The translations under genes were made by a program, and so were the position numbers. Shown in pieces: positions 27,669 to 63,925 of a DNA stretch of 64,000 nucleotides. The stretch is from positions 372,001-436,000 of the forward strand of contig NZ_BBOJ01000003.1 in assembly GCF_000974445.1 (NCBI RefSeq), given 5' to 3'. The notes under the pieces were generated by a model, which made no database searches, was not told where the DNA came from, and worked only from the letters and a program-made list of their open reading frames with translations. Position 1 is the stretch's first letter; every line of letters starts with the position of its first letter. This stretch comes from Lentzea aerocolonigenes. GTDB lineage: Bacteria > Actinomycetota > Actinomycetes > Mycobacteriales > Pseudonocardiaceae.

Positions 27669-27679
27669 TTTCCGTTGAG

Positions 27680-27704
27680 GTAGCGGACATCCACTGTCCT
27701 CTAC
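27680..27704. promoter_or_regulatory. Operator upstream of the VOC gene (WYL regulator site)
   Basis: GTAGCGGACA (27680-27689) and TGTCCTCTAC (27695-27704) are an inverted repeat with a single mismatch and five spacer bases. The same motif, without mismatch, occurs at 29152-29178 before the WYL regulator gene. It is very likely the binding site of that regulator. Confidence 0.7.
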
Positions 27705-27757
27705 GGACGGAACAGTAGCTCCTGAACGCCGGAACTCCACTCAGTCAGGAGCACGTC

Positions 27758-28168
27758 ATGTCCGTCACCACAGCGCCTCACCTCAACTTCCGCGGCGACG
27801 CCCGCGAGGCGCTCGAGTTCTACCAGAAGGTCTCCGGCGGGGACCTGGCCGTCATCACCTACGGGGACATGGGCAACGTGGAGAACCCCGACGAGGCCGG
27901 CCAGGTCGTGTGGGGGCAGGTCCGCGGCGCGAACGGCTTCCACGTCATGGCCTACGACGTGCCCGCGGCCAGGCCGTTCAGCCGCGGCGACGACCCGTTC
28001 TTCGTGTCGCTGCGCGGTGACTCGGCCGACGAGATCTCCGCGTTGTGGGACGAGCTGTCCGACGGCGCCACGGTCGTCGTCCCGCTGGCGGCCTCGCCGT
28101 GGGCACCGCTGTACGGCATGCTCAAGGACCGTTTCGGCATCACGTGGGTGCTGGACGTCGCGGCCTGA
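27758..28168 (+). CDS. VOC-superfamily protein (PhnB/3-demethylubiquinone methyltransferase-like)
   Basis: This 136-residue protein has the two beta-alpha-beta modules of the vicinal oxygen chelate fold. It starts PHLNFRGDAREALEFYQKVSGG and ends YGMLKDRFGITWVLDV, the usual PhnB-like pattern. The catalytic role is unknown; such proteins bind small molecules or metals. A WYL-type operator lies 54 bases upstream. The gene abuts the convergent WYL regulator gene with no gap, and this two-gene arrangement suggests a regulator and target pair. Confidence 0.88.
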   Translation: MSVTTAPHLNFRGDAREALEFYQKVSGGDLAVITYGDMGNVENPDEAGQVVWGQVRGANGFHVMAYDVPAARPFSRGDDPFFVSLRGDSADEISALWDELSDGATVVVPLAASPWAPLYGMLKDRFGITWVLDVAA

Positions 28169-29110
28169 TCATCCGGCGGAGTCGCGGTAACGGCGCGCCA
28201 GCACCAAAGCGGCGTCCCGCAGCTCCGCCGGACCGACGATGTGGACGGCGGCGTCGAAACGACCCAGCGACGCCGCCAGCCCGACCCACGACCACGACCC
28301 CGCGACGAGGCGGCACCGGTCGTCATCGATCGGCTCGACGATGCCGTCACCGGCGAACGGCGCCACCTCGGCGGCGGGCAGGTCGATCACCGCTTCCCCC
28401 TGGCACGGCCACGCGTCCCTCCCTCCCGCGGCGCCCTTGAACCTGGCGTTGACGAACGCCACGACGTCGCCGCCGGGGACCTCACGCGGGCTGAACCGGG
28501 GCCCTGTGGGCGTTTTCGGGGTCATCCGGTCGGCGCGGTAGACGCGCCAGTCGTCGCGGCCGAGGTCCCAGCCGACCAGGTACCAGCGCCCGGCCCGGTT
28601 GATCAGGTGGTGCGGTTCGATGCGGCGAGGCGACTCGTGCTCGTAGTCGAACCGCAGGACCTCGCGCGCTCGTACCGCGGCGCTGAGCGCCAGCAGCACT
28701 GCGCTGTCGATCTTCTGCGGCGAACGGTCGACCACGGTCACCTGCACGGCGTCGATGCGGTGCCGCAACCGGTTCGGCATCACCTGGCGCATCGTCGCCA
28801 GCGCACGTGTCGCGGCGTCGGCGATGTCCGCGCCCGAGCCGGCGGCGAGCTGCAACGCCACCGTCACCGCCACCGCCTGGTCGTCGTCGAACAGCAGCGG
28901 TGGCACGTCGGTGCCCGCTTCGAGCCGGTAGCCGCCGTCCGGTCCTTTCACCGCCACCACGGGATAACCCAGCTCGCGCAACCGGTCGATGTCACGACGG
29001 ACCGTGCGCGGGGTGACGTTGAGCCGCTCGGCGAGCAGCTGGCCCGGCCAGTCGCGGCGCGCCTGCAGCAGCGAGAGCAGGGACAGCAACCGGCCCGACG
29101 CCTGAGTCAT
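28169..29110 (-). CDS. HTH-WYL (DeoR-like) transcriptional regulator
   Basis: This 313-residue regulator has an N-terminal HTH (LLAERLNVTPRTVRRDIDRL), a middle linker, a WYL domain (RAGRWYLVGWDLGRDDWRVYR) and a C-terminal WCX-like domain. WYL domains sense small ligands or nucleic acid. ATG at 29110 is chosen over an upstream GTG at 29119. A perfect 11-bp inverted repeat lies 42 bases upstream and its near copy stands before the VOC gene, so it probably represses itself and the VOC gene. Its stop abuts that of the VOC gene. Confidence 0.9.
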   Translation of the reverse strand: MTQASGRLLSLLSLLQARRDWPGQLLAERLNVTPRTVRRDIDRLRELGYPVVAVKGPDGGYRLEAGTDVPPLLFDDDQAVAVTVALQLAAGSGADIADAATRALATMRQVMPNRLRHRIDAVQVTVVDRSPQKIDSAVLLALSAAVRAREVLRFDYEHESPRRIEPHHLINRAGRWYLVGWDLGRDDWRVYRADRMTPKTPTGPRFSPREVPGGDVVAFVNARFKGAAGGRDAWPCQGEAVIDLPAAEVAPFAGDGIVEPIDDDRCRLVAGSWSWVGLAASLGRFDAAVHIVGPAELRDAALVLARRYRDSAG

Positions 29111-29565
29111 GGCAACCACCTTCTCGACGACACAGGCCTCACCTTCTCCCCGGTAGAGGACACCCCCTGTCCTCTACCCCACCGGGCGGCCGTGGCGTGG
29201 ATCACCGAGCGCCCACCCGTCAGGCACCACAGCGCGATGACCGGGTCGCAGATCGCGCACCCGAGCGACGAGTGCTCGGCGAACGGGATGATCGGGTGGC
29301 CCTTGACGTGGTGGACGACGTCCCAGCCGGTGTGCAGCAGCCAGGCGATGCCGATGAACGTCCACGACTCCAGCCCGCGGTAGGCGCAGTACGTCACGGC
29401 GGCCGTGAACACGAACTCCCAGCCGCCCATGCCGCCGCCGCTCAGGTAGGCCGCGCCCGCACCCGCGACGAAGACCGCGTTGAACCGGCGGCGGTGCGGC
29501 TCCTTCAGCAACGACATCAGCACGACGAAGACCAGGCCGATCAGGATCGGCAGCACGATTGTCAT
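29107..29565 (-). CDS. DUF6010-type small membrane protein
   Basis: This 152-residue membrane protein has about four helices (IVLPILIGLVFVVLMSLL, AGAGAAYLSGGGMGG, then a conserved TYCAYRGLESWTFIGIAWL) and the His-rich loop LLHTGWDVVHHVKGHPI. It resembles DUF6010 proteins, function unknown. ATG at 29565 is preferred over TTG at 29574. The last 20 or so codons run through the WYL operator at 29152-29178 and overlap the regulator start by four bases, so DUF6010 and regulator are translationally coupled. Confidence 0.8.
   Translation of the reverse strand: MTIVLPILIGLVFVVLMSLLKEPHRRRFNAVFVAGAGAAYLSGGGMGGWEFVFTAAVTYCAYRGLESWTFIGIAWLLHTGWDVVHHVKGHPIIPFAEHSSLGCAICDPVIALWCLTGGRSVIHATAARWGRGQGVSSTGEKVRPVSSRRWLP
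29152..29178. promoter_or_regulatory. Operator upstream of the WYL regulator gene
   Basis: GGTAGAGGACA (29152-29162) and TGTCCTCTACC (29168-29178) form a perfect 11-bp inverted repeat with a CCCCC spacer. It lies 42 bases before the WYL regulator start, inside the end of the DUF6010 gene, and matches the site at 27680-27704. Confidence 0.75.
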
Positions 29566-29658
29566 GATCGGCAAGCTAGCCAGCCGCGCGTCCGGCGACC
29601 ATTGGCCAGAACGCCAACTTCCACCGGATTCTCGCCAGCGCCGCGATCCCCGGACGCG

Positions 29659-51579: not shown

Positions 51580-51879
51580 TCAGTGCTCGTCGTAGTGCTC
51601 CTCGTGGACGGCGTGGCGGTGGCCGTCGTGCACGTAGTCGACGTGGTCGCCGTGCGGGACCGACACGTGCCCGCACCCCTCGCCGTGCGCGTGCCCGTGA
51701 TCGGAGTGCGGGCGGTGGTCGTCGCCCGGCTCGCACTCGTCGAAGTGCCCGTCGTGGGCCCGGTGCAGGTGACCGTCGTGCACGTAGTCGACGTGGTCAC
51801 CGTGCGGGACCGAGACGTGGCCGCACCCCTCGCCGTGCGCGTGGCCGTGATCGGAGTGTTCCAGGTGTGCCGTGGTCAT
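51580..51879 (-). CDS. His-rich metal-binding protein with internal duplication
   Basis: This 99-residue protein contains 25 or more histidines. The stretch HGHAHGEGCGHVSVPHGDHV occurs twice, about 55 residues apart, each followed by DYVHDGH and a His/Asp/Glu-rich link. It has no signal peptide or membrane helix. Such proteins occur next to zinc uptake genes in actinomycetes and probably buffer or deliver zinc or nickel. ATG at 51879 is divergent from the ATP-grasp gene, with 200 bases and a Zur/Fur-like box between them, suggesting joint control by metal. Confidence 0.85.
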   Translation of the reverse strand: MTTAHLEHSDHGHAHGEGCGHVSVPHGDHVDYVHDGHLHRAHDGHFDECEPGDDHRPHSDHGHAHGEGCGHVSVPHGDHVDYVHDGHRHAVHEEHYDEH

Positions 51880-52020
51880 GAGCCTGCCTTTCGCCTGTCA
51901 CTCGGACGACCTGAGCGGTCACCGAACGCAGCAAAGTATTAGGCCATGCGCATGAACGGCGCACGCCGAACGCTCACCCGATCGACCCCCTCAACGGGGA
52001 GGCGGTGGATCTTCGCAATC

Positions 52021-52039
52021 GACAATGATTACCATGTTC
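52021..52039. promoter_or_regulatory. Zur/Fur-like box upstream of the metallophore operon
   Basis: GACAATGATTACCATGTTC resembles Fur-family boxes (core ATGATNATCAT) with an imperfect dyad. It lies 41 bases before the ATP-grasp GTG. A Fur/Zur-type gene is the last member of that operon. The surrounding bases are AT-richer than the rest of the window, as expected for a promoter. Confidence 0.5.
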
Positions 52040-52079
52040 CTCAATCCGCCGCGGGTGTCGCGGCCGACGAGGAGGACAC

Positions 52080-53330
52080 GTGGCTCACCTGTTGATGATC
52101 GAGAGCTGGGTCGGCGCGATGAGCTCGCTGCTGCCCAGGGCGATCAACGAGTCAGGGCACCGCTTCACCTTCATGACCCGCGATCTGCACCACTACCTGC
52201 GCGCCGCGCCCGCGCAGCCGCACCCGTTGCTCGCGGCGGAGAACGTGCTCACCGCGGAGACCAACGACGTGAGCGCCCTGCTCGGCCACGTCGAGCGCCT
52301 GCACGCGGTCCTGCGCTTCGACGGCGTGATCTCCTCGTGCGACTACTACCTCCCGACGACCGCGCGGGTCGCGGCCCACCTCGGCCTGCCCGGTCCTGAT
52401 CCGCTCGCCGTGGAACGGGCCTGCCGCAAGGACCTCACCCGCACCGCCCTGCACGAGGCCGGGGTGCCGGGTCCTCGTTTCGCCCTCGCCGAGGACTGGC
52501 CCGCGCTCGCCAAGGCCGCCGCCGAGCTTGGCTACCCGCTGGTGGTCAAGCCGGTCGACCTGTGCGCCGGGATGTACGTGCGCAAGGTGACCGATGAAGC
52601 AGAGCTGCGCGAGGCGTTCGCCGCGATCGAGGCGTTCCCGGTCAACGCCCGCAACCAGCCGAGGGTGCCTGCCGTGCTGCTGGAGGAACTGCTGACCGGC
52701 CCCGAGGTGAGCGTGGAGACCGTCACGGTGGACGGTGCGACGCACGTCGTCGGCGTCACCGACAAGAGCGTCGCGGGCGAGCCGTGGTTCGTCGAGAGCG
52801 GCCACATGTTCCCCGCCGACCTGGACACCGCCGCGGCCGAGGCGGTCGCCGTCGCCGCGATCGAGGCGTTGGGCCTGGACCGGGGTGTCGCGCACACCGA
52901 GGTCAAGCTGACGCCGGAGGGCCCGAAGCTCGTCGAGGTCAACCCGCGCCCCGCCGGCAACCAGATCACCGAGCTCGTCCGGCGCGTCACCGGCATCGAC
53001 CTGCCCGCCGCGTACGCCCAGCTGGCCGTCGGTGAACGGCCCGACCTGCGCCCGGCGGACACCGGGGTGCGCAGTGCCGCGATCTCCTTCCTGCTGCCGC
53101 CGCGCTCCGGCCAGGTGGCGTCCATCCGCGGCGCGGAGAAGCTCGCCGTCACCGAGGGCGTCGTGGAGTGGGCGGTCAAACAACCCGGCCACAGGGCGGG
53201 AGATCCGACCAGCAACAACAGCTACCTCGGGCACGTCGTGGTGACCGACCCGGCCGGTCTCGGCGCGCGTGCGCGGGCCGAGCAGCTCGTCGGTGGTCTG
53301 TCCGTCGACTACGCCGAGGAGTCCGAGTGA
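52080..53330 (+). CDS. ATP-grasp ligase
   Basis: This 416-residue ATP-grasp enzyme has the central fold visible as YPLVVKPVDLCAGMYVRKV, LLEELLTGPEVSVETVTV and the metal-binding VEVNPRPAGNQITE. It should join a carboxylate to an amine through an acyl-phosphate. The first 100 residues resemble the N-terminal Rossmann part of amino acid and peptide ligases. GTG at 52080 has GAGGAGG at 52068-52074. It leads a run of genes each overlapping the next by four bases, so it is probably the amide-forming step of metallophore synthesis. Confidence 0.88.
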   Translation: MAHLLMIESWVGAMSSLLPRAINESGHRFTFMTRDLHHYLRAAPAQPHPLLAAENVLTAETNDVSALLGHVERLHAVLRFDGVISSCDYYLPTTARVAAHLGLPGPDPLAVERACRKDLTRTALHEAGVPGPRFALAEDWPALAKAAAELGYPLVVKPVDLCAGMYVRKVTDEAELREAFAAIEAFPVNARNQPRVPAVLLEELLTGPEVSVETVTVDGATHVVGVTDKSVAGEPWFVESGHMFPADLDTAAAEAVAVAAIEALGLDRGVAHTEVKLTPEGPKLVEVNPRPAGNQITELVRRVTGIDLPAAYAQLAVGERPDLRPADTGVRSAAISFLLPPRSGQVASIRGAEKLAVTEGVVEWAVKQPGHRAGDPTSNNSYLGHVVVTDPAGLGARARAEQLVGGLSVDYAEESE

Positions 53331-54109
53331 CGCTCGCAGACCTCGTCGAGCTCGTCCGCGGTGGCGGGCTCGGGCTCGATCCGGCCGGATGTCCGGTGAG
53401 CGTCGGGTTCACGACCAGGCAGGGCGCCCGGCACGCCACCCGTGGGCAGTCCTACCGCAACACGGTCGTGAGCCTCCGTGTGGAGGAGGCGGTCGGTTCC
53501 TGCGCGGTGGAGGACATCACCGAAGGTGAGGTGCACAGCTGTGTCGGCGCATCGGTGCTCGACCTGCTCGATCACTCGAACCCTGCCATCCGGACCGCCG
53601 TGTTGGACGCGTACCTCACGCACGTGCGTCCGCATCACTTGTGCGCCACCAAGTCCATCACCGTCGGCCCCGGTAGTTCACTGGCGAAGTCGATGGCGCG
53701 TGCGGAAGCCGTGATCGACCTGCTGGACCCCGCACCGGGTGACCGTGTGTTGGTGGTGGGCGTCGTCAACTCGTTGCTGCACCACCTGCGCGCGCGAGGC
53801 GTCACGTACGTGCCGTGTGATCTCAAGGGCGGCCGGACCGAGTGGGACGAACCGATCGCCACGGACGCAGAGAGCGCGCTCGACGCGTGCAACCTCGTGC
53901 TGGCCTCAGGCATGACGGTCGGCAACGGCACGTTCGAACCGTTGCTCGCGGCCGGCAAGCCGATGGTGATGTTCGCGCAGACGGCTTGCGCGATCCTGCC
54001 GTGGTTCATCGGCAGCGGCGTGCGTGCCGTGTCCGCTGAGCCGTATCCGTTCTTCTGGCTCGACGGCGGTCCGACGACGATCCACCACTACACGGAGCGT
54101 CCGTCGTGA
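53327..54109 (+). CDS. DUF364 (Rossmann-like, heavy-metal-chelation) protein
   Basis: This 260-residue protein has the DUF364/DUF4213 layout. It carries SVGFTTRQGARHATRGQSYRN (in part), RVLVVGVVNSLLHHLRARG as a dinucleotide-like loop, and ASGMTVGNGTFEPLLAAGKP near the end. Structures of family members show an enolase-N-like and a Rossmann-like domain with a proposed metal-chelation role. GTG at 53327 overlaps the ATP-grasp stop. Its placement between a ligase and a PLP enzyme suggests a biosynthetic or metal-loading job. Confidence 0.8.
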   Translation: MTLADLVELVRGGGLGLDPAGCPVSVGFTTRQGARHATRGQSYRNTVVSLRVEEAVGSCAVEDITEGEVHSCVGASVLDLLDHSNPAIRTAVLDAYLTHVRPHHLCATKSITVGPGSSLAKSMARAEAVIDLLDPAPGDRVLVVGVVNSLLHHLRARGVTYVPCDLKGGRTEWDEPIATDAESALDACNLVLASGMTVGNGTFEPLLAAGKPMVMFAQTACAILPWFIGSGVRAVSAEPYPFFWLDGGPTTIHHYTERPS

Positions 54110-55164
54110 TGATCCCCCGCCAGAACCGGCACCTGCTCGGTCTCCTGGGTCAGAGCCCAGTCGCCCGCATAGAAACGCCGCTGCCGCACCGGCACGGTGG
54201 TTTCTGGGCCAAGCTGGAATGTCTGAGCGCTGGCGGCATGAAGGCCCGGCCCGCCGTGTCGATGCTGCGCGCCGCACGGGAACGCGGCGAGCTGCGGCCC
54301 GGCGCGGTGGTCGTGGAGTCGACCAGCGGCACGCTCGGCGTCGGACTCGCGTTCGCCGGTCAGGTCTTCGGCCACCCGGTCGTGCTGGTGGTGGACAGCG
54401 AACTGGAGCCGTCGATGCGTGCCCTGCTGCGCGCGCACGGAGCCAGGTTGGAGGTCGTGGACCGGCCGCACCCGGTGGGCGGCTGGCAGCAGGCGAGGCT
54501 GGACCGGCTCCAGGCGGTGCTGCGCGAGTTCCCCGACGCGTACTGGCCCGACCAGTACAACAACCCGGACAACCCCAGGGGCTACGCCGGGCTCGCCAGG
54601 GAACTGGTGGAGCAGCTGGACCCCGTCGACGTGCTGGTGTGCAGCGTCGGCACCGGCGGGCACAGCGCGGGCGTCGTCCGGGAGCTGCGGCGGTACTGGC
54701 CCGGCGTGCGGCTGATCGGCGTGGACACGATCGGTTCGACGATCTTCGGCCAGCCCGCGCGGACCAGGGTGATGCGAGGACTGGGCAGCAGCATCCACCC
54801 ACGCAACGTCGCCTACGCCGAGTTCGACGAGGTGCACTGGCTGGGCCCGGTCGAGGTGGTCGACGCCTGCCGCAGACTGGCCCGCGACGCCTTCGTCACC
54901 GGCGGCTGGAGCACCGGCGCGGTCGCACTGGTCGCCGCCTGGGCCGCCAGGGTCGAGCCGGGAGCCGTGGTCGCGACGATCTTCCCCGACGGCGCGCACC
55001 GCTACCTCGGCACGATCTTCGACGACGAGTTCTGCCACGCCCGCGGCCTGCTCGGCACGGCGTCGGACCGTCCGGTGGAGATCGGCGACCCGCACCACGT
55101 CGAGGCGACGGGCTGGACGCGGACCCGGTCGGTCGTCGCGCCTCGCGCGGCGGTGCTCGCGTGA
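54106..55164 (+). CDS. Cysteine-synthase-like PLP enzyme (SbnA-type)
   Basis: This 352-residue fold-type II PLP enzyme resembles SbnA. Lys in AGGMKARPAV binds PLP, ESTSGTLGVGLAF binds the substrate carboxylate, GTGGHSAGV holds the phosphate, and YWPDQYNNPDNPRGY is typical of SbnA. SbnA couples O-phosphoserine with glutamate through a new C-N bond toward 2,3-diaminopropionate. No ornithine-cyclodeaminase-like SbnB partner is present. The enzyme may therefore build an aminocarboxylate directly into the metallophore. GTG at 54106 (or ATG at 54109) overlaps the DUF364 gene. Confidence 0.86.
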   Translation: MMIPRQNRHLLGLLGQSPVARIETPLPHRHGGFWAKLECLSAGGMKARPAVSMLRAARERGELRPGAVVVESTSGTLGVGLAFAGQVFGHPVVLVVDSELEPSMRALLRAHGARLEVVDRPHPVGGWQQARLDRLQAVLREFPDAYWPDQYNNPDNPRGYAGLARELVEQLDPVDVLVCSVGTGGHSAGVVRELRRYWPGVRLIGVDTIGSTIFGQPARTRVMRGLGSSIHPRNVAYAEFDEVHWLGPVEVVDACRRLARDAFVTGGWSTGAVALVAAWAARVEPGAVVATIFPDGAHRYLGTIFDDEFCHARGLLGTASDRPVEIGDPHHVEATGWTRTRSVVAPRAAVLA

Positions 55165-56168
55165 ACCTCACCTGGGAGGTCTACGGCCTCGACCTGGCCA
55201 CGCCGCTGCGCATCTCCAGGTCGGTGATGTCCCGCCGGGACGCCGTGCGGGTCGTTCTCGAGCACGACGGACTGCGCGGCCACGGCGAGGTGGTGACGAG
55301 CACGTACTACGGCCTCTCGGTGGACGCGATCACGTCCTGTTTGGACAGTCTTTCCCTGGACGCACCGGAGGCCGCACTCGACGTTCTGCACGCGGACGAC
55401 ACCATCCCGGCGGGAGTGCGGGCGGCGGTGGACGCGGCTCTGCACGACCTGCTCGGGTTGCGTCGTGCTGTTCCGGTGCACGCGCTCGTAGGTGTCGAGC
55501 GCTGGCAGGACGTCCCGACGGCTTACACGATCGGCATCACGGACGACCCCGCGGCATTGGCCTCGGAGCTGGTCGAGCGCGGGTTCTCCGTGCTGAAGCT
55601 CAAGGCCGGAGCGGATCCGGAACGCGATGTCGCCACCGTGACCGCGGTGCGAGCCGCCGCGCCCGACGCACGCCTGATCCTCGACCCCAACGGTGGCTGG
55701 AGCCCGGACGAGACGGTGCGCGTGGTCGAGAAGATCACCGCCGCTGGTGTCGTGCTGGACGCGGTGGAGCAACCGATCCCACCCGGTGATCCAGATGCGC
55801 TGGCGTGGGTTCGGGAGCGTTGTCCGGCACCGCTGGTCGCCGACGAGGACGCCGCCACGGTCGCCGACGTGCGGAGGCTGGCGGGCGCGGTGGACGGCGT
55901 GAACGTCAAGCTCGCCAAGTGCGGCGGCCTGCGCCCGGCGCTGGAGATCGTGTCGGCCGCGCGCGAGGGCGGGCTGGACGTGATGCTCGGCTGCCTGGTC
56001 GCCAGTTCGCTGGGGATCGCGCCCGCCGTTCACCTGGCGGGGCATGCGCGGTGGGTCGACCTGGACGGGCACCTGTTGCTGGCGCACGACCCGTGGACGG
56101 GGATCGGCGGGGAGGACGGCACGCTGCGGCTGGCCGGGGCGCCGGGGCTCGGGGTGGTGCGGCGATGA
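55161..56168 (+). CDS. Enolase-superfamily dipeptide-epimerase-like enzyme
   Basis: This 335-residue muconate-cycloisomerase-group enzyme has the catalytic KxK in LKLKAG, metal ligands in ILDPNGGW, VEQPI and VADEDA, and the second Lys in NVKLAKCGG. This is the set seen in L-Ala-D/L-Glu and other dipeptide epimerases. It would invert a stereocentre of an amino-acid unit, either in a metallophore precursor or in a recycled peptide. GTG at 55161 overlaps the SbnA-like gene. Its stop overlaps a 54-codon small frame. Confidence 0.87.
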   Translation: MNLTWEVYGLDLATPLRISRSVMSRRDAVRVVLEHDGLRGHGEVVTSTYYGLSVDAITSCLDSLSLDAPEAALDVLHADDTIPAGVRAAVDAALHDLLGLRRAVPVHALVGVERWQDVPTAYTIGITDDPAALASELVERGFSVLKLKAGADPERDVATVTAVRAAAPDARLILDPNGGWSPDETVRVVEKITAAGVVLDAVEQPIPPGDPDALAWVRERCPAPLVADEDAATVADVRRLAGAVDGVNVKLAKCGGLRPALEIVSAAREGGLDVMLGCLVASSLGIAPAVHLAGHARWVDLDGHLLLAHDPWTGIGGEDGTLRLAGAPGLGVVRR

Positions 56169-56329
56169 TCGGCTTCGCGCTCCCCCACCACCACCCGCGA
56201 TCGGGCAGCGCCCTGGGACTGGGCAGCGTCCCGCAGCCGGGCAGCGCCCCGCGACCGGGCAGCGCCCCGCGACCGGGCGGCGCCCCGCGACCGTCCGCGG
56301 CACCGGGCCTGGACGTGGTGCCCCGATGA
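56165..56329 (+). CDS. Small coupled frame (54 aa) with GSAPRP repeats
   Basis: ATG at 56165 overlaps the epimerase stop, and its TGA overlaps the MFS ATG at 56326. The first residues MIGFALP mirror the MFS start MTRFALP. The body is five 18-bp tandem units (56201-56290) that read GSAPRP-like hexapeptides. The arrangement suggests that the MFS start region was duplicated and filled by slippage. It may be expressed because it is coupled on both sides, but a function is doubtful. Confidence 0.35.
   Translation: MIGFALPHHHPRSGSALGLGSVPQPGSAPRPGSAPRPGGAPRPSAAPGLDVVPR
56201..56290 (+). repeat. Five tandem 18-bp repeats between epimerase and MFS genes
   Basis: Units related to CCGGGCAGCGCCCCGCGA repeat five times. 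Units three and four are identical and the others differ by one to five bases. The period of 18 keeps the small frame open. Confidence 0.85.
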
Positions 56330-57492
56330 CCCGCTTCGCCCTCCCCGTCCGGCTCCTGCTGCTCAACCAGTTCGCCGTCAACACCGGCTTCTACCTGCTC
56401 ATCCCCTACCTCGCCACGCACCTCGGCAGCCTCGGCATGTCCGCCGCCGTGATCGGCGTCGTGCTGGGCGTGCGCACGCTCAGCCAGCAGGGCCTGTTCC
56501 TGGTGGGCGGCACGGCGTCGGATCGGCTCGGCCCGCGCACCACGATCCTCGTCGGCTGTGCCCTGCGCGCGGTCGGGTTCGGGTTGTTCGCCATCGGCGA
56601 GTCGCTCGCCGTCGTGCTGGCCGCGTCGGTGCTCAGCGGGCTGGCCGGGGCGCTGTTCAACCCGGCGGTGCGCGCCTACATCGCGTTGGAGGCGGGCGAG
56701 GCGCGCACGGAGGCGTTCGCGCGGTTCAACGTCTACGCGCAGGCCGGTGCGTTGTTCGGGCCGGTGCTCGGCAGCGTGTTGCTGCTGTGGGACTTCCGGG
56801 TGTCCGCGCTCGTGGCGGCCGGGATCTTCGCGGTGCTGACGGTCGCGCAGGCCGTCGTGCTGCCCGCGCGCCCGGCGACCCGCACGGGCGGGTCGATCCT
56901 CGGCGACTGGCGGGAGTGCATGGCCAACCGCCGGTTCGTGGCATTCACGTGCGTGTTGAGCGTGATGTTCGTGCTGCAGAACCAGCTCTACCTGTTGCTG
57001 CCGATCCAGGCGCAGAAGGCCAGCGGGTCTAACGCGGTGGTCGCGGTCCTGTTCGTCGTCTCCACCGTCGTCACGCTGTTGTTCCAGGTCCGCCTCACCC
57101 GCTTGCTGGCGGAACGCGAACGCGGGCCGGTGATCGCGGTCGGACTTGCTGTCATGGGGGTGGGTTTCGCGGCGCCCGCGCTGTGGTCGGGGCTCGTGCC
57201 GGTGCTCGTCGCCACGCTCGCGCTGGCCGTCGGGGTGATGATCGCGCACCCGTTGGTCTACGACCTCATCCCGTCGTTCGGCCCGGACAGCCTGGCTGGA
57301 ACCCACTTCGGCGTGTTCTACCTCGGATCCGGGGTGGCCGCGGCCGCCGGCAACGCCGCGATCGGCTGGGTGAGCGGGTTCGGCGACCGGCTCGCGTCGC
57401 TGCTGTGCGTCGCGATCGGGCTCGCCGGGGCCGCCGGGATGGCCTGGCTGCACCGCCGTGGAGCTCTCACCCTGGAAGGGGCCGTCCGATGA
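56326..57492 (+). CDS. MFS efflux transporter
   Basis: This 388-residue major facilitator has about twelve helices. The loop motif between helices 2 and 3 appears as GGTASDRLGPRTTILVG. It resembles drug/metabolite exporters. Its position between biosynthetic genes and an Opp-type importer parallels CntE, the MFS exporter of staphylopine, so it probably exports the finished metallophore. ATG at 56326 is coupled to the upstream small frame, and its stop overlaps the methyltransferase start. Confidence 0.9.
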   Translation: MTRFALPVRLLLLNQFAVNTGFYLLIPYLATHLGSLGMSAAVIGVVLGVRTLSQQGLFLVGGTASDRLGPRTTILVGCALRAVGFGLFAIGESLAVVLAASVLSGLAGALFNPAVRAYIALEAGEARTEAFARFNVYAQAGALFGPVLGSVLLLWDFRVSALVAAGIFAVLTVAQAVVLPARPATRTGGSILGDWRECMANRRFVAFTCVLSVMFVLQNQLYLLLPIQAQKASGSNAVVAVLFVVSTVVTLLFQVRLTRLLAERERGPVIAVGLAVMGVGFAAPALWSGLVPVLVATLALAVGVMIAHPLVYDLIPSFGPDSLAGTHFGVFYLGSGVAAAAGNAAIGWVSGFGDRLASLLCVAIGLAGAAGMAWLHRRGALTLEGAVR

Positions 57493-58253
57493 ACCTGCTC
57501 ACCGACAACCCCGAGCTGTACGAGCACCAGTTCCCCGACTCCGGCCACGTCGCGGCCCGGTTCGTGCACGACCTGGTCACCCGGTTCGACGGAGGCCGGG
57601 ACCTGCTCGACGTCGGGTGCGGCACCGGCCGTGACGCGGGGTGGCTGTCCCGCAACGGTTACCGCGTGTCCGGAGTGGACAGTTCGGAGAGCATGCTCGC
57701 CCACGTCCGGAAGCACCACCCCGAGGTCGACGTGACGCTGGCCGACATGCGCGGCTTCGACCTGGGCCGCACGTTCGACGTGATCACGTGTCTGGACAGC
57801 GCGATGCTGTACTGCCACACCAACGCCGACCTCGACGCGTTCCTCAGCCGGTGCCGCGCGCACCTGAGGCCCCGCGGGTTGTTCGTCGCGGAGATGCGCA
57901 ACGGCGCGTTCTTCCTCGGCAACACCGAACTGCTCGACGGCGTGCGCACGCGTTCGGTGACGTGGCGCGGCACCGAGTACACCTCGCACACCGAGCTGTG
58001 GATCGACCACGCCGCGCAGTTGTTGCGCCGCCGCCGCACCTGGGAGTGGGGCGCGGAACCGCTCGTGCAGCGGTCCGCGTGGCGGCTGCTGTTCCCCCAG
58101 GAGCTGCGCCACCTGCTCGACCTCGCCGGGTTCGAGGTTCTCGCCCTGTTCGACTCCCCCGGTCCGCGCACGGACCAGCCGTGGTCGGCGAACGCCCCGC
58201 TGAGCACCGCGCTGTCCGGTGACCGCCTCCACGTCGTGGCCCGCCTCCGCTGA
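57489..58253 (+). CDS. Class I SAM-dependent methyltransferase
   Basis: This 254-residue methyltransferase has motif I DLLDVGCGTGRDAGWL, acidic motif DSSESML and GRTFDVITCLDSAM. It is similar to small-molecule methyltransferases. An N- or O-methylation of the metallophore is the natural guess. ATG at 57489 overlaps the MFS stop. It is followed by the solute-binding protein gene after 11 bases. Confidence 0.88.
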   Translation: MNLLTDNPELYEHQFPDSGHVAARFVHDLVTRFDGGRDLLDVGCGTGRDAGWLSRNGYRVSGVDSSESMLAHVRKHHPEVDVTLADMRGFDLGRTFDVITCLDSAMLYCHTNADLDAFLSRCRAHLRPRGLFVAEMRNGAFFLGNTELLDGVRTRSVTWRGTEYTSHTELWIDHAAQLLRRRRTWEWGAEPLVQRSAWRLLFPQELRHLLDLAGFEVLALFDSPGPRTDQPWSANAPLSTALSGDRLHVVARLR

Positions 58254-58264
58254 AAGGAACCAGA

Positions 58265-59782
58265 ATGTCCCTCAACCGCCGCGGTTTCCTCGGTCTCACC
58301 ACCTTGACGGTCGCCACCCTGGCAGGGTGCGGCAGCGCCCCGGTTTCGGCCCCGCGCACCGGTGGCAGGCTGCGTGCCGCCTTCGCGGGCGGCGGGGCCA
58401 AGGAGGTCCTCGACCCGCACCTCGCGAACCTGTTCGTCGAGGCCGCCCGGTCCAAGGCGCTGTACGACAAGCTCGCGGACCTCGGCACCGACGTGTCTCC
58501 GCAGCCGAGGCTGGCGGAGAAGTGGGAGCCGAGCGCGGACCTCTCCCGCTGGCGAATCACGTTGCGCCAGGCCAAGTTCCACGACGGCAGACCGGTCCGC
58601 GCCCAGGACGTCCTCGCCAGCTACGCGCGCATCCTCGACCCGAACCGGGCGTTCCGCGCCAAGTCGAGCCTCGCGCTGATCGACCTGCCGAACAGCCGCG
58701 CCGTCGACGACCGCACGGTGGAGTTCGCGCTGAAGCGGCCGTTCGCCGAATTCCCCAACGCCCTGGCGGCGTTCGGCGCGTACATCGTGCCCGAGGGCAC
58801 CGAGGACTTCACGAAGCCCGTCGGGTCGGGAGCGTTCAGCTTCGTGTCGTTCGAGCCGGGCAAGTCCGTGCTGGTCAAGCGGAACCCGGACTACTGGGAG
58901 GGCGCGCCGCTGCTGGACGAGCTGGAGTTCCTGATCGCCAACGAGGAGTCCGCGCGCACCAACGCGTTGCTGGGTGGCCAGGTCGAGTACGCGCACGACC
59001 TGACGCCGACCACCGCGCGCAGCCACGCCTCCGGTGACCGGATGGCGATCCACCGCGCGCCCAACAGCGCCGTGCAGGCGTTCGCCATGAAGCTCGACCG
59101 GGCGCCGTTCGACAACCGCGACCTGCGCGAGGCGTTGTTCCTGCTCGTCGACCGGCCTCAGCTCGTGGAGTCGGTGCTCGCGGGCAGCGGCCAGGTCGGC
59201 AACGACCTGTTCGGCAAGGGCTACCAGCACTACGCCGACGCAATTCCGCAGCGGGAGCGGGACCTCGACAAGGCGAAGTTCCTGATCCGCAAGGCAGGCG
59301 CCGAGGGCCTGACGGTCAAGCTCGACACGTCCACCGCCGCGGCCGGGATGGTCGAGGCCGCCACGGTGTTCGCCGACCAGGCCAAGGGATCGGGCCTGAC
59401 GATCGAGGTCGTCCAGGGCAACAAGGACAGCTACTGGGCCGACACGCTCAAGAACGGTTCGCTGTCGAGCTTCCGCTCCGGCGCGATGCCGATCGAGACC
59501 CACATCGCGCAACGCCTCCTCAAGGGCGCCGGTACCAACGTGACGAAGTGGAACCGCCCGGAGTTCGACGCCCTCTACGAGAAGGCGGTGTCCACTTCGG
59601 ACGAAGGCGCGCGGAACGAGGCGTACGTGGAGATGCAGCGCGTGCTGCATGCCGAGGGCGGTTACCTGATGTGGGGCTTCGCCGACTGGATCGTGGGCGC
59701 GAAGCCGAACGTCGGCGGAATCTCCGACGCGCCCGCGAACACGCTGGACTGGGCGCGTTTCGACAAGGTGTGGCTGGGGTGA
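58265..59782 (+). CDS. ABC importer solute-binding lipoprotein, family 5 (Opp/Nik/CntA type)
   Basis: This 505-residue SBP_bac_5 protein has a Tat-like start with NRRGFLG, then a lipobox LAGC at about Cys21. The fold is typical: LRQAKFHDGRPVRAQDVLASY, GSGAFSFVSFEPGKSVLVKR and MQRVLHAEGGYLMWGFADW. Members bind peptides, nickel chelates or staphylopine-type metallophores. Its place in this operon argues for a metal-metallophore ligand. ATG at 58265 has AAAGGAA at 58252-58258. Its stop overlaps the first permease gene. Confidence 0.9.
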   Translation: MSLNRRGFLGLTTLTVATLAGCGSAPVSAPRTGGRLRAAFAGGGAKEVLDPHLANLFVEAARSKALYDKLADLGTDVSPQPRLAEKWEPSADLSRWRITLRQAKFHDGRPVRAQDVLASYARILDPNRAFRAKSSLALIDLPNSRAVDDRTVEFALKRPFAEFPNALAAFGAYIVPEGTEDFTKPVGSGAFSFVSFEPGKSVLVKRNPDYWEGAPLLDELEFLIANEESARTNALLGGQVEYAHDLTPTTARSHASGDRMAIHRAPNSAVQAFAMKLDRAPFDNRDLREALFLLVDRPQLVESVLAGSGQVGNDLFGKGYQHYADAIPQRERDLDKAKFLIRKAGAEGLTVKLDTSTAAAGMVEAATVFADQAKGSGLTIEVVQGNKDSYWADTLKNGSLSSFRSGAMPIETHIAQRLLKGAGTNVTKWNRPEFDALYEKAVSTSDEGARNEAYVEMQRVLHAEGGYLMWGFADWIVGAKPNVGGISDAPANTLDWARFDKVWLG

Positions 59783-60723
59783 GCCTCGCCTCCTACGCGG
59801 CCCGCCGGGTCGCGCTCGGCCTGGTGCAGGTGCTGGCCGTGGTCACGCTGGTGTTCTTCTTGGTTCAGGCCCTGCCCGGCGACGCGGCGGTCGCACTGGC
59901 GGGCGACAACCCGGACCCCGCGCGGATCTCGGCGATCCGCGCGGCCATGGGCCTCGACCGCTCGGTCTCCGAACGGTTCGTGTCGTGGCTGGCGGGGTTG
60001 CCCCGGCTGGACTTCGGCGTGTCCCTGGTGTCAGGCCGTCCGGTGGCGGACTTCCTGTTCGCCGGCATCGGCCCGACGGTCGTCCTGGCGGCGCTGACCC
60101 TGGTGCTGCTGGTACCGATCTCGGTGCTGGCCGGGGTGCTGGCCGCGTTGCGCGAGGGCAGCCTGCTGGACCGAGCGCTGACGTCGGTGAGCGTGGCGCT
60201 GCACTCGATCCCGGAGTTCGCGCTGGCGATCGTGCTGATCGCGGTGTTCGGCGTCCAACTGGCCTGGCTGCCCCCGACCGCGGTGGGCGCGGATCTCCTG
60301 ACCCAGCCCGCGGTCCTGGTGCTGCCCCTGGTGGTGCTGCTGGCCCGCCCGATCTGCTCGATCAGCCGCCTGGTGCGCGCGGGCATGCTCGACGCGCTGG
60401 CCTCGGACTACGTGCGCCACGCCCGCCGCCTCGGCCTGGGCGAGTCACGGATCCGCTTCGCCCACGCCCTGCCGAACGCGCTGGCGCCGGCGGTGCAGCA
60501 GGTCGCGCGGACCACGGACTGGTTGCTGGGCGGGGTGATCGTGGTGGAGGCGGTGTTCGTGATTCCTGGGCTGGGGACGGTGCTGGTGGACGCGGTGGCG
60601 GGCCGGGACCTGCCGGTGGTGCAGGGGCTGGCGGTGGTGTTCGCGGTGACGACGGTGGCGGTGAACCTGGTGGCGGATCTGGTGGCGTTCCGGCTGGCGC
60701 CGCGGGCGGAGGTGGTCGCGTGA
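59779..60723 (+). CDS. ABC importer permease, DppB/NikB type
   Basis: This 314-residue permease has the N-terminal helix typical of DppB-like subunits (SYAARRVALGLVQVLAVVTLVFFLVQ in segments). It then has the core with YVRHARRLGLGESRIRFAHALPNAL as the EAA loop. It forms the inner-membrane channel with the permease at 60764. GTG at 59779 overlaps the solute-binding gene. Its last 13 bases are repeated 44 bases on, just before the next permease start. Confidence 0.9.
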   Translation: MSLASYAARRVALGLVQVLAVVTLVFFLVQALPGDAAVALAGDNPDPARISAIRAAMGLDRSVSERFVSWLAGLPRLDFGVSLVSGRPVADFLFAGIGPTVVLAALTLVLLVPISVLAGVLAALREGSLLDRALTSVSVALHSIPEFALAIVLIAVFGVQLAWLPPTAVGADLLTQPAVLVLPLVVLLARPICSISRLVRAGMLDALASDYVRHARRLGLGESRIRFAHALPNALAPAVQQVARTTDWLLGGVIVVEAVFVIPGLGTVLVDAVAGRDLPVVQGLAVVFAVTTVAVNLVADLVAFRLAPRAEVVA

Positions 60724-60767
60724 CGTTGGTGAGCAGCACGGCGACCGACTCGGCGGTGGTCGCGTGA
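60720..60767 (+). CDS. Tiny coupled frame (15 aa) between permease genes
   Basis: GTG at 60720 overlaps the first permease stop and its TGA overlaps the second permease GTG at 60764. GGTGGTCGCGTGA stands at both 60711-60723 and 60755-60767. The frame is the product of a 44-bp duplication of the gene junction. It probably preserves coupling and does not encode a functional peptide. Confidence 0.25.
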   Translation: MTLVSSTATDSAVVA

Positions 60768-61537
60768 AGCGCGCAGGCCTCGGCGCTCTCCTCATCGCAG
60801 CGCCCCTGACCCTCGCCCTTCTGGGCCCCCTCTTCGTCCCCGACGACCACCCCCGCGCCGCCCCCTTCATGCCGCAAGGCCTCCTGGGCACCGACTTCGT
60901 GGGCCGCGACGCCTGGCACCAGGTCCTCGCGGGCGGCCGAACAGTCGTGCTCGTGGCGCTCATCGCCACCGCACTCTCGTACGTCGTAGGCGTTCCGTAC
61001 GGCGTACTAGCGGCCACCGCGCGCCTCAGACTGGTCGACGAGGCGCTGATGCGGCCGCTGGACGTGGTGCTGGCGGTGCCGTCGCTGCTGGTCCTGATCC
61101 TCGTGGCGGCCATTGCGGGACAAGGACTTCCGGTCCTGATAGCGGTGGTCGCCCTCGTCAACTTCCCCGACGTCGCCCGCCTGTCACGCGCGGCGGCGCT
61201 GGAGATCTCCGGACGTCCCGCCCTGGAGGCGATGCGCATGCAGGGCGAGTCGTGGTGGCAGACCTCGATCGTCTACACCGGACGGTCGATGGTGCGTACG
61301 CTCGCCGCCGACCTGGGGGTGCGACTCACCGGGGCGTTGTACCTGGTGGCGTCGGCCAGTTTTCTCGGGGTCGGGGTGCCTCCCGGCGCGGCGGACTGGG
61401 CCGTGATGGTCGACCGCAACCGGGGTGGGTTGTTCCTGCAACCGTTGACGGTCGTGGTGCCCGCGTTGCTGATCGTCTCGTTGTCCGTCGGGCTGAACCT
61501 GGTGTTCGACCGCGCTCTCAGGAAGGTGCGGACGTGA
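60764..61537 (+). CDS. ABC importer permease, DppC/NikC type
   Basis: This 257-residue permease is the partner of the DppB-like subunit. It has the family start GPLFVPDDHPRAAPFMPQGLLGTDFVGRD (in segments), where LLGTDFVGRD is the DppC hallmark, then five or so helices. The EAA loop lies around AALEISGRPALEAMRMQGESW. GTG at 60764 is coupled to the tiny frame, and its stop overlaps the ATPase gene. Confidence 0.9.
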   Translation: MKRAGLGALLIAAPLTLALLGPLFVPDDHPRAAPFMPQGLLGTDFVGRDAWHQVLAGGRTVVLVALIATALSYVVGVPYGVLAATARLRLVDEALMRPLDVVLAVPSLLVLILVAAIAGQGLPVLIAVVALVNFPDVARLSRAAALEISGRPALEAMRMQGESWWQTSIVYTGRSMVRTLAADLGVRLTGALYLVASASFLGVGVPPGAADWAVMVDRNRGGLFLQPLTVVVPALLIVSLSVGLNLVFDRALRKVRT

Positions 61538-62952
61538 GCCCGGTCGTGCACGTCGAGGACCTGCGGGCCGAGGCGAACAAGAACGTCCTGCTCGACGGGG
61601 TCAGCTTCGCGTTGTCTGCGGGACGGGTTCTGGCGCTGGTCGGTGCCTCCGGCAGCGGCAAGACGACGACCGGCCTGGCACTGCTCGGTGAGCGGTCGCC
61701 CGGCGTGACCGTCAGCGGTCGGGTGAGCCTCAGCGGACGTGTCGGGTTCGTGCCCCAGCAACCCGCGTCCGCGCTCAACCCGGTGCGCAGGCTGGGCTCG
61801 GTGTTCCGGGAGATCGCGGCGCTGCACGACGGTGATCCCGAAGATCTCGTCGGCACGGCGCTGCGCCGGGCGCGGGTGCCGGCCGACCTGCTGCGGCGCT
61901 ACCCGCACCAGCTCTCCGGCGGTCAGCAGCAACGGGTCGTGCTCGCCCAGGCGCTGGTCGGCGACCCGGCGGTCCTGGTGGCCGACGAACCCACCACCGG
62001 GCAGGACGCCCTGACCCGCAACGAGGTCGTCGGTGAGCTCGCCGCCGTCGTCGCGCAGGGCGTGGCGCTGGTGCTGCTGACCCACGACGTCGAGGTGGTG
62101 CGGGCGCTCGCCGACGAGATCGTGGTGCTGCGCGCCGGACGCGTCGTCGAAGCCGGACCGGCGAACGAACTCCTGACCGACCCGCGCGACGACTACACCC
62201 GCGCGTTGCTCGACACCGTGCCGCCGGCACCCACCACTACACCGGAACAGGCGCCACGGTTGCGGGTGCGCGGCCTGACTGCCCTGTACCGCAACGCGAC
62301 CGTCCTGCACGACGTCGAGTTGGAGGTCGGCGAACGGCTGGCGGTCGTCGGGCGGTCCGGCAGCGGCAAGACCACCCTCGGCCGGTGCCTCGCCGGTCTG
62401 CACCAGCAGGCCAGCGGCGAGGTGCTGCTGCACGACCGGCTGCTCGCCCGGTCGCTGCGCCGCCGGTCGCGGGCGGAACTGGCCGCCGTGCAGTACGTGT
62501 TCCAGGACGCGCGGGGGTCGTTCGACGAGCACCGGCCAGTGCTGGACCAGGTCGCCAGGACGGCGGTGCGGCTGCGCGGAGTGCGTCCCGCCGACGCCCG
62601 TGCCGCAGCACTCACCGCCCTGAACCGCGTCGGACTGGCCCAGGAGACGGTGCTGCGCCGGCCGCGGGGCCTGTCCGGCGGCGAGCTCCAGCGGGCCGCG
62701 CTGGTGCGCGCCCTGCTCGCCGAACCCGAGGTGCTCGTGTGCGACGAGATCACCTCGGGCCTGGACGCGGTGACCCGCGCCGGGCTGCTCGACCTGCTCG
62801 CGGGCGTGCCGTGCGCGCTCGTGCTGATCAGCCACGACCTCGACGTCGTGGCCCGCCTCGCCGACCGGGTGGTCGTGCTCCACGAAGGACGTGTCGTCGC
62901 ACACGGCCCGGTGGAGACGACCCTCGACGGCGCCGAAGAGAGGATGAAGTGA
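61534..62952 (+). CDS. Fused double ABC ATPase (DppD-DppF / NikD-NikE type)
   Basis: This 472-residue protein carries two ATPase domains that are separate in most Opp/Nik systems. Domain 1 (about 1-235) has GASGSGKTT, LSGGQQQR and VLVADEPTTGQD. Domain 2 (about 245-470) has GRSGSGKTT, LSGGELQR and VLVCDEITSGLD. All catalytic motifs are intact. It completes the importer with the lipoprotein and two permeases. GTG at 61534 overlaps the second permease gene, and its stop overlaps the GNAT gene. Confidence 0.91.
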   Translation: MSPVVHVEDLRAEANKNVLLDGVSFALSAGRVLALVGASGSGKTTTGLALLGERSPGVTVSGRVSLSGRVGFVPQQPASALNPVRRLGSVFREIAALHDGDPEDLVGTALRRARVPADLLRRYPHQLSGGQQQRVVLAQALVGDPAVLVADEPTTGQDALTRNEVVGELAAVVAQGVALVLLTHDVEVVRALADEIVVLRAGRVVEAGPANELLTDPRDDYTRALLDTVPPAPTTTPEQAPRLRVRGLTALYRNATVLHDVELEVGERLAVVGRSGSGKTTLGRCLAGLHQQASGEVLLHDRLLARSLRRRSRAELAAVQYVFQDARGSFDEHRPVLDQVARTAVRLRGVRPADARAAALTALNRVGLAQETVLRRPRGLSGGELQRAALVRALLAEPEVLVCDEITSGLDAVTRAGLLDLLAGVPCALVLISHDLDVVARLADRVVVLHEGRVVAHGPVETTLDGAEERMK

Positions 62953-63509
62953 TCAAGCACCACAAGGGGTCCCACGAGGTGCGGCTGGCGACCCACGCCG
63001 ACCTGCCGGGCGCCCGCAGCGTCATGCTGGACACCTTCTACCGCGAGTTCGGTCACGGCTACCGCCCCCAGTGGCACACGGACGTGATCGACCTGGCCGG
63101 CACCTACCTGGACACCCCCAGGCACGCGCTGTTCGTCGCGGTGGACGGCGACGAGGTCGTGGGCACCACAGCCGTGCGGGCCCAGGGACCGGCCAGCCCG
63201 CCCCACCCGGCCTGGCTCGCCGAGCGCTACTCGGGCGACCGGACAGCGCAGCTGTTCCGGGTGTACGTCCGGCCGTCGCACCGCCGCCGCGGCCTCGCCC
63301 GTGCCCTCGTCGACGCCGCGGTCGGGTTCATCGCCGAAACCCCCGGCTACGAACAGATCTACCTGCACACGGACACCCGAGTGCCCGGCGCGGAAGCGTT
63401 CTGGCGCTCGGTCGCGGTCGAGGTGTGCGACGCGCGCGACGGAGATCCCGAGCGCAACCAGACCGTGCACTTCGAGATTCCCGTACCGGCACTGGCCGAA
63501 CTGAGGTGA
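62949..63509 (+). CDS. GNAT-family N-acetyltransferase
   Basis: This 186-residue acetyltransferase has the acetyl-CoA loop in VRPSHRRRGLARALVDAAV. An N-terminal strand (HEVRLATHADLPGARSVML) and AFWRSVAVEVCDA near the end complete the fold. It may acetylate the metallophore, its precursor, or a breakdown product after import. GTG at 62949 overlaps the ATPase stop. Its stop overlaps the Fur-family start. Confidence 0.87.
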   Translation: MIKHHKGSHEVRLATHADLPGARSVMLDTFYREFGHGYRPQWHTDVIDLAGTYLDTPRHALFVAVDGDEVVGTTAVRAQGPASPPHPAWLAERYSGDRTAQLFRVYVRPSHRRRGLARALVDAAVGFIAETPGYEQIYLHTDTRVPGAEAFWRSVAVEVCDARDGDPERNQTVHFEIPVPALAELR

Positions 63510-63925
63510 CGCACGTCGTGGGTGGAAAACGCACTGCTCGCAACGGTTTCCACCCACGACCGCTGTCGCCCAGCACACGGTTCGTGCTCACGGCTCTCGG
63601 GCGCGAAGACACGTTCGTCAGCACGAGCGAGCTCCACCAGCGGATCCACGACCTCGGCCACCCGCTGGGAACGTCCACTGTGTACAGAGCGCTCCGGCGT
63701 CTCCGTGAGCGCGGCCTGGTCGACGTCGTGGTCGACGAGCACGGTGAACGCCGCTACCGCCGGTGCTCGGACCGTCCCCACCACCACCTGGTCTGCTCGG
63801 CGTGCCACCGCACGATCGAGATCCCGGCGAGCTCGGCCCCTCTCCCGGCGTGGACACCCGCCGAGGGCTACACGGACGTGCTCGTGCGCGTGACGATCAC
63901 GGGCACGTGCGGCGAGTGCACGTGA
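63506..63925 (+). CDS. zur: Fur-family metalloregulator (Zur candidate)
   Basis: This 139-residue Fur-family repressor has a winged-helix N-terminal half (STVYRALRRLRERGLVDVV) and a dimerisation half with HHHLVC, CSACHRTIEIP and a final CGEC. The two CxxC pairs form the structural zinc site. His residues in DRPHHHLVC are regulatory metal ligands. Linkage to a His-rich protein and a probable metallophore operon suggests zinc sensing, but iron, nickel or manganese cannot be excluded. GTG at 63506 is coupled to the GNAT stop; GTG at 63518 is an alternative. It should repress its own operon through the box at 52021-52039. Confidence 0.87.
   Translation: MTHVVGGKRTARNGFHPRPLSPSTRFVLTALGREDTFVSTSELHQRIHDLGHPLGTSTVYRALRRLRERGLVDVVVDEHGERRYRRCSDRPHHHLVCSACHRTIEIPASSAPLPAWTPAEGYTDVLVRVTITGTCGECT

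Follow-up and report, generated by a model that had tools for sequence, protein, structure and literature searches.

What is made, and what is carried, by an operon that joins biosynthetic enzymes to both an exporter and an importer? This question was raised by a locus of Lentzea aerocolonigenes lying in a 64,000-nucleotide stretch (the window; positions 372001-436000 of contig NZ_BBOJ01000003.1, assembly GCF_000974445.1, in a 10.7-Mb genome). Twelve plus-strand genes occupy positions 52080-63925 of the window, with one divergent minus-strand gene alongside. A sequence-only reading had proposed a possibly undescribed operon for metallophore synthesis, export and re-import, unlike the staphylopine (Cnt) system and under a Fur/Zur regulator. 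This proposal was largely supported. As judged from sequence, the locus encodes, with a probability of about 0.85, a zincophore system that is repressed by Zur and comprises synthesis, export and re-import. The zincophore reading is well supported because the Zur box is conserved, the synteny is conserved and importer-linked pairs of genes recur. The part of the proposal that found no support is regulation by the operon's own Fur gene.

The promoter region was examined for metal-regulator sites. The top match to the Zur consensus within the window was CGACAATGATTACCA at 52020-52034. A Zur-like site was similarly placed in all 14 ATP-grasp-led loci first examined (the window and thirteen others), and was found upstream of nearly all of the 80 orthologous loci described below; matches were weak (9-10 of 15 positions) in L087-L090, L096, L100 and L103, and the upstream sequence of L125 is masked. 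The published Streptomyces coelicolor Zur motif, tGaNNatSatNNtCa (PMC5472717), was matched at 9 or more of 11 positions in 76% of 78 upstream regions of orthologous operons. The corresponding share was 2.3% among random 200-bp windows drawn from these loci and 0.8% among the upstream regions after shuffling. In the genome of the window strain, the operon consensus is matched best, with one mismatch, in front of a COG0523 GTPase gene; a further match, with two mismatches, precedes a second COG0523 GTPase gene. Against the model for the zinc metallochaperone ZigA, the product of the first gene scored 498 bits, under the cut-off of 600. Zur is known to target COG0523 genes (PMC6103462). At the sequence level, the operon has what a Zur-regulon member would be expected to have, namely a promoter box that is conserved in orthologs and common to known Zur targets. 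The sequence gives good support to the predicted logic of regulation and of transport.

Given that aminopolycarboxylates bind several metals, a metallophore for nickel, cobalt or iron instead of zinc was considered. The solute-binding protein gave its best NCBIfam match to the NikA type, which would suit nickel, although far under the cut-off (140 vs 600 bits). On the other hand, the operon promoter contained no Nur box (best 6/12) and no convincing IdeR/DmdR1 box (best 10/19), while the Zur box is present and conserved, indicating that another metal is unlikely.

The arrangement of the genes was compared among actinomycetes, a survey that the sequence-only reading had suggested. A DUF364 relative was present in 135 of 299 genomes of the family. 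Twenty loci were then examined; 12 had the whole order from ATP-grasp to ATPase and L044 had the first four genes only. When 84,980 species genomes were scanned, 311 relatives turned up, of which the best 80 were fetched and compared. They came from Lentzea, Saccharothrix, Umezawaea, Actinokineospora, Streptoalloteichus, Saccharopolyspora, Actinoplanes, Micromonospora, Frankia, Nonomuraea and Streptomyces. The order of ATP-grasp ligase, DUF364, SbnA-like enzyme, epimerase, major facilitator superfamily (MFS) protein, methyltransferase and Opp importer was kept across several actinomycete families, and all ten core genes stood in the same order within the fetched stretch in 71 of the 80 loci, some of the others being cut by contig ends. 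Identity between orthologs was mostly 50-95%. The operon is not a chance assembly, given that genera from several families share its gene order. The methyltransferase gene was present in 74 of the 80 loci. The GNAT gene was present in 55, on the same strand in Pseudonocardiaceae and often divergent upstream in Streptomyces.

Families were assigned by Pfam and NCBIfam profile scans, and every gene family named in advance was present as claimed (Table 1). The divergence of the operon from a gene for a His-rich protein was also seen, as were the four-base overlaps, of which there are 8 at the 11 junctions. The non-overlapping junctions are 157 bp 5′ of the MFS gene, 11 bp 5′ of the solute-binding protein gene and 40 bp 5′ of the second permease gene. 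The first of these gaps, between the epimerase and MFS genes (56169-56325), is filled with imperfect direct repeats encoding GQRPATGQRP-like sequence.

Table 1. Features of the operon and its divergent neighbor, in window coordinates. PLP, pyridoxal 5′-phosphate; SAM, S-adenosylmethionine.
Feature	Position	Strand	Remarks
His-rich 99-aa protein	51580-51879	-	duplicated HSDHGHAHGEGCGHVSVPHGDHVDYVHDGH unit; divergent from operon; accessory
Zur-box-like site CGACAATGATTACCA (7-1-7)	52020-52034	+	46 bp 5′ of ATP-grasp start codon
ATP-grasp L-amino-acid ligase	52080-53330	+	PF13535 70 bits; LAL_C2 59 bits
DUF364 protein	53327-54109	+	PF04016 35.7 bits
SbnA-family PLP beta-replacement enzyme	54106-55164	+	TIGR03945 ~258 bits
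Dipeptide-epimerase-like enolase	55161-56168	+	best NCBIfam match DgcA, 239 bits; KxK and DxD motifs
MFS exporter (predicted)	56326-57492	+	MFS 112 bits
Class I SAM-dependent methyltransferase	57489-58253	+	66 bits
Family 5 solute-binding lipoprotein (Opp/NikA type)	58265-59782	+	SBP_bac_5 250 bits
Opp-type permease 1	59779-60723	+	
Opp-type permease 2	60764-61537	+	PF00528 (BPD_transp_1)
Fused double ABC ATPase of importer	61534-62952	+	two ABC ATPase domains in one protein
GNAT acetyltransferase	62949-63509	+	56 bits
Zur-like Fur-family paralog	63506-63925	+	FUR 63 bits; accessory in this strain's operon

The operon enzymes look competent for the predicted synthesis. In the ligase, the ATP-grasp and LAL_C2 domains both scored above the Pfam cut-off, the best match in the PDB was the L-amino acid ligase 3VOT (E-value 1e-30), and the ATP-grasp active-site residues were invariant or nearly so in the 80 fetched loci; its predicted role is to make a peptide bond of the product. 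The enolase is nearest to DgcA and to L-Ala-D/L-Glu epimerases, the NCBIfam equivalog cut-offs not being reached. It retains the KxK acid/base lysines (K146, K148), the second lysine (K250), the Asp/Glu/Asp metal ligands (D175, E203, D228) and the DxD motif (D300, D302). The KxK, the metal ligands and the DxD dipeptide motif were invariant or nearly so in the 79 of the 80 loci where the PLP enzyme and the epimerase could be aligned. The methyltransferase is a predicted tailoring enzyme.

The nearest PDB structures to the PLP enzyme were those of SbnA (5D84-5D87). K46, R131 and Y151 were kept in 79/79 aligned orthologs; K46 is the Schiff-base lysine, and R131 and Y151 are the equivalents of SbnA Arg132 and Tyr152. 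The enzyme is predicted to join activated serine (a C2-C3 unit) to an amino-acid nitrogen. An SbnA-family enzyme with these residues is shared with the staphyloferrin B pathway. However, SbnA Ser185 is aligned with a glycine (Gly182) in the operon enzyme, and neither an SbnB-type dehydrogenase nor nonribosomal peptide synthetase (NRPS)-independent siderophore (NIS) synthetases were found among the scanned operon proteins with Pfam and NCBIfam.

The DUF364 protein scored 35.7 bits against a PF04016 gathering score of 23, and its AlphaFold model was confident (predicted local distance difference test score, pLDDT, 92.8). A fold search returned as best matches the two solved DUF364 proteins, 3L5O and 3NPG (probability 1.0, template-modeling score 0.58); outside its own family only weak partial matches, to enolase and PLP enzymes, were seen. 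To our knowledge, no reaction has been assigned to the DUF364 family, which has two crystal structures. A role of DUF364 in heavy-metal chelation was proposed independently from structure and context (PMC2954201). With Dhaf4260 (3L5O) the operon protein has in common the two-domain fold and a link to metal ABC transporters, whereas its SbnA-like partner and the Zur box that precedes the two set it apart. The DUF364 protein is the putative core partner of the SbnA-like enzyme.

An MFS exporter and an Opp-type importer stand together in the operon. The MFS protein is predicted to export the metallophore. For the solute-binding protein the best solved match was AgaA (6HLX), and it is predicted to bind the metal complex. 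We infer that zinc is the metal, and likewise in what order the reactions run, to what class the product belongs and in which directions transport goes, as follows. Upon zinc starvation, chromosomal Zur would leave the promoter box and the operon would be transcribed. The SbnA-like enzyme would combine activated serine with an amino-acid nitrogen, giving an aminopolycarboxylate unit of the N-(2-amino-2-carboxyethyl)-amino-acid type, on which DUF364 would act. The ATP-grasp ligase would then add an amino acid, the epimerase would invert a stereocentre of the dipeptide-like part, and the methyltransferase, perhaps with the GNAT protein, would tailor the product. The chelator would be exported by the MFS protein, and the loaded complex would be retrieved by the lipoprotein, the Opp permeases and the fused ATPase.

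The DUF364 and SbnA-like pair was also found in other settings. Other Lentzea have a second locus (L054, L179) with a divergent MFS gene, a Zur box, a FecB-type binding protein, a FecCD permease, an ATPase, DUF364 and an SbnA-like enzyme. In the window strain (C45 ~25500-29600; L178:1511-5596), the MFS gene, a Zur-box-like site and the FecB/FecCD/ATPase genes are kept but, unlike in L054 and L179, DUF364 and the SbnA-like enzyme are missing. Because the importer is kept and the two enzymes are lost, this locus looks importer-only, possibly a piracy state. The pair stands with a small-methyltransferase-domain protein in L059, and with an Opp importer and a PhyH-type-dioxygenase-like protein in L060, each with a Zur-like box upstream. 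Core-only loci (L051, L053, L055) have DUF364, SbnA-like, MFS and Opp genes, without the ligase, epimerase and methyltransferase; in L053 a PhyH gene lies nearby. It is roughly an even bet that DUF364 and the SbnA-type PLP enzyme are the common core of an unrecognised, widespread class of actinomycete zincophores, in which ligase/epimerase/methyltransferase, methyltransferase or PhyH would be add-ons, Opp and FecBCD importers would be exchanged and DUF364 would catalyze a new reaction.

Because [S,S]-ethylenediamine disuccinate (EDDS) contains neither a peptide bond nor a D-centre nor a methyl group, it leaves the ligase, epimerase and methyltransferase of the operon unexplained. The operon is therefore improbable as an EDDS cluster or a trivial extension of one, even though an SbnA-type step would be chemically plausible there and a Pseudonocardiaceae species makes EDDS, an aminopolycarboxylate, under Zur control (PMC6103462, PMC9252823). 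Moreover, the simpler DUF364 and SbnA-like loci L059, L060 and L179 would be better candidates for such a product. In its regulation and its predicted chemistry, the operon is nevertheless closest, among known systems, to EDDS (aes genes, Amycolatopsis japonicum), a Zur-controlled zincophore from the same actinomycete family with the predicted aminopolycarboxylate chemistry in common; judged by product chemistry, the operon differs in that a peptide ligase, an epimerase and a methyltransferase are not needed for EDDS. Loci L059, L060 and L053 are candidates for EDDS-type clusters.

Several observations weigh against the zincophore reading. The window box is imperfect, matching TGAAAATGATTTTCA at 11 of 15 positions and the operon consensus at 12 of 15, and about a quarter of the orthologous operons fell below 9/11 on the published motif. 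The SbnA-like enzyme scored 257.8 bits to TIGR03945, its best NCBIfam match, which is under the equivalog cut-off of 349.95. No Zur box was found at the DUF364 promoter of the core-only loci L051, L053, L055 and L056, and in these loci the metal served by the core may be a different one; as to other metal boxes, L055 showed one Nur-like site (10/12) and the others nothing clear.

Relatives of the ATP-grasp ligase (~45% identity) were found in another actinobacterial family (f22; L181-L184). In L181 and L182, the ligase gene lies directly 3′ of a nicotianamine synthase gene (PF03059, E-values 6e-64 and 5e-62), which belongs to an enzyme family of plant and bacterial metallophores. The pairing suggests a different ligase-containing metallophore. 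A possible Zur-like site at the start of these nicotianamine synthase genes was set aside because it lies within conserved coding sequence. Outside the window, two further ATP-grasp relatives (36% and 27%) at C53:339131-342606 (L010) lie near N-hydroxylase-like and acyl-CoA-dehydrogenase-like genes, possibly in another biosynthetic cluster.

The link of ligase relatives to nicotianamine synthase also speaks against the operon being a cluster for a dapdiamide-like diaminopropionate dipeptide antibiotic, with the MFS protein as a self-resistance exporter. A diaminopropionate-type PLP enzyme next to an ATP-grasp ligase would fit such a cluster, and a weak DdaF match (32.9 bits) was seen; however, the operon has a dedicated importer and a Zur box, and it is conserved widely across families instead of occurring sporadically, which makes an antibiotic very unlikely. 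Least credible is catabolism of peptides or murein peptides, with the Opp-type importer taking up peptides and the L-Ala-D/L-Glu epimerase-like enolase, with its DxD motif, handling L-Ala-D-Glu-like dipeptides, since the operon has no peptidase, its ATP-dependent ligase and SbnA-type synthase are anabolic, an exporter is present and the Zur box is conserved.

The regulator named in the sequence-only reading was examined separately. Control by a Fur/Zur protein agrees with the conserved Zur box, but the operon's own Fur gene is not conserved across the orthologous operons. As a conserved local regulator this terminal gene was rejected, being absent from the 80 loci and from the twenty fetched earlier. 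The canonical Zur is encoded elsewhere in the genome (C52:443637). The operon Fur protein is 42% identical to it, with FurB (2O03) and ScZur (3MWM) as the closest PDB structures, and its gene is by these comparisons an accessory Zur paralog. Both CxxC pairs are retained in the paralog, together with the Cys/His of one sensory site; it is without two His of the canonical Zur, the aligned residues being P and R, and its zinc sensing may therefore be different. Orthologs of the paralog from other Lentzea (68-71% identity) adjoin zinc genes: a ZnuA gene with Zur boxes in L198, and a P-type ATPase and an ArsR gene in L196. Homologs of the His-rich protein, which is likely zinc-binding, lie between COG0523 (ZigA-like) genes in L199 and next to the group of P-type ATPase, ArsR and Zur paralog in L196. 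Both genes are thus drawn from zinc-regulon neighborhoods, which ties the locus to zinc independently. The context of L196, L198 and L199, in which Zur-like boxes accompany these zinc genes, hints at a two-Zur arrangement in Lentzea.

Among known systems, staphylopine/Cnt and the opine-like zincophores have in common with the operon an MFS exporter, an Opp-type importer, the logic of synthesis, export and re-import and, in several cases, Zur-type regulation. However, no nicotianamine synthase (CntL-like) or opine dehydrogenase (CntM) match was found with Pfam and NCBIfam in the operon's non-transporter proteins; an SbnA-type PLP enzyme, DUF364, an ATP-grasp ligase and a dipeptide-epimerase-like enolase are found instead. 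Coelibactin of S. coelicolor is likewise a Zur-controlled actinomycete zincophore, but it is an NRPS product and the operon has no NRPS. Loci of this kind may or may not be picked up by the aminopolycarboxylic-acid metallophore class of antiSMASH 7 (PMC10320115). No account of the operon was found in the open-access literature on DUF364, zincophores and Zur with SbnA or ATP-grasp, subscription papers and preprints lying outside the search; as judged from that literature, the probable zincophore system appears to be undescribed.

If the zincophore reading is true, many strains of Streptomyces, Micromonospora, Frankia and Pseudonocardiaceae would have a zincophore system that does without NRPS, NIS synthetase and opine enzymes, and DUF364 would gain a testable pathway context. 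Further zinc chelators would be expected, which would probably be aminopolycarboxylates, a class used as replacements for ethylenediaminetetraacetic acid. Aspergillomarasmine A, also an aminopolycarboxylate, is reported to inhibit zinc beta-lactamases via zinc sequestration (PMC8319579). Moreover, importer-only remnants such as the C45 locus of the window strain would suggest zincophore piracy among soil bacteria.

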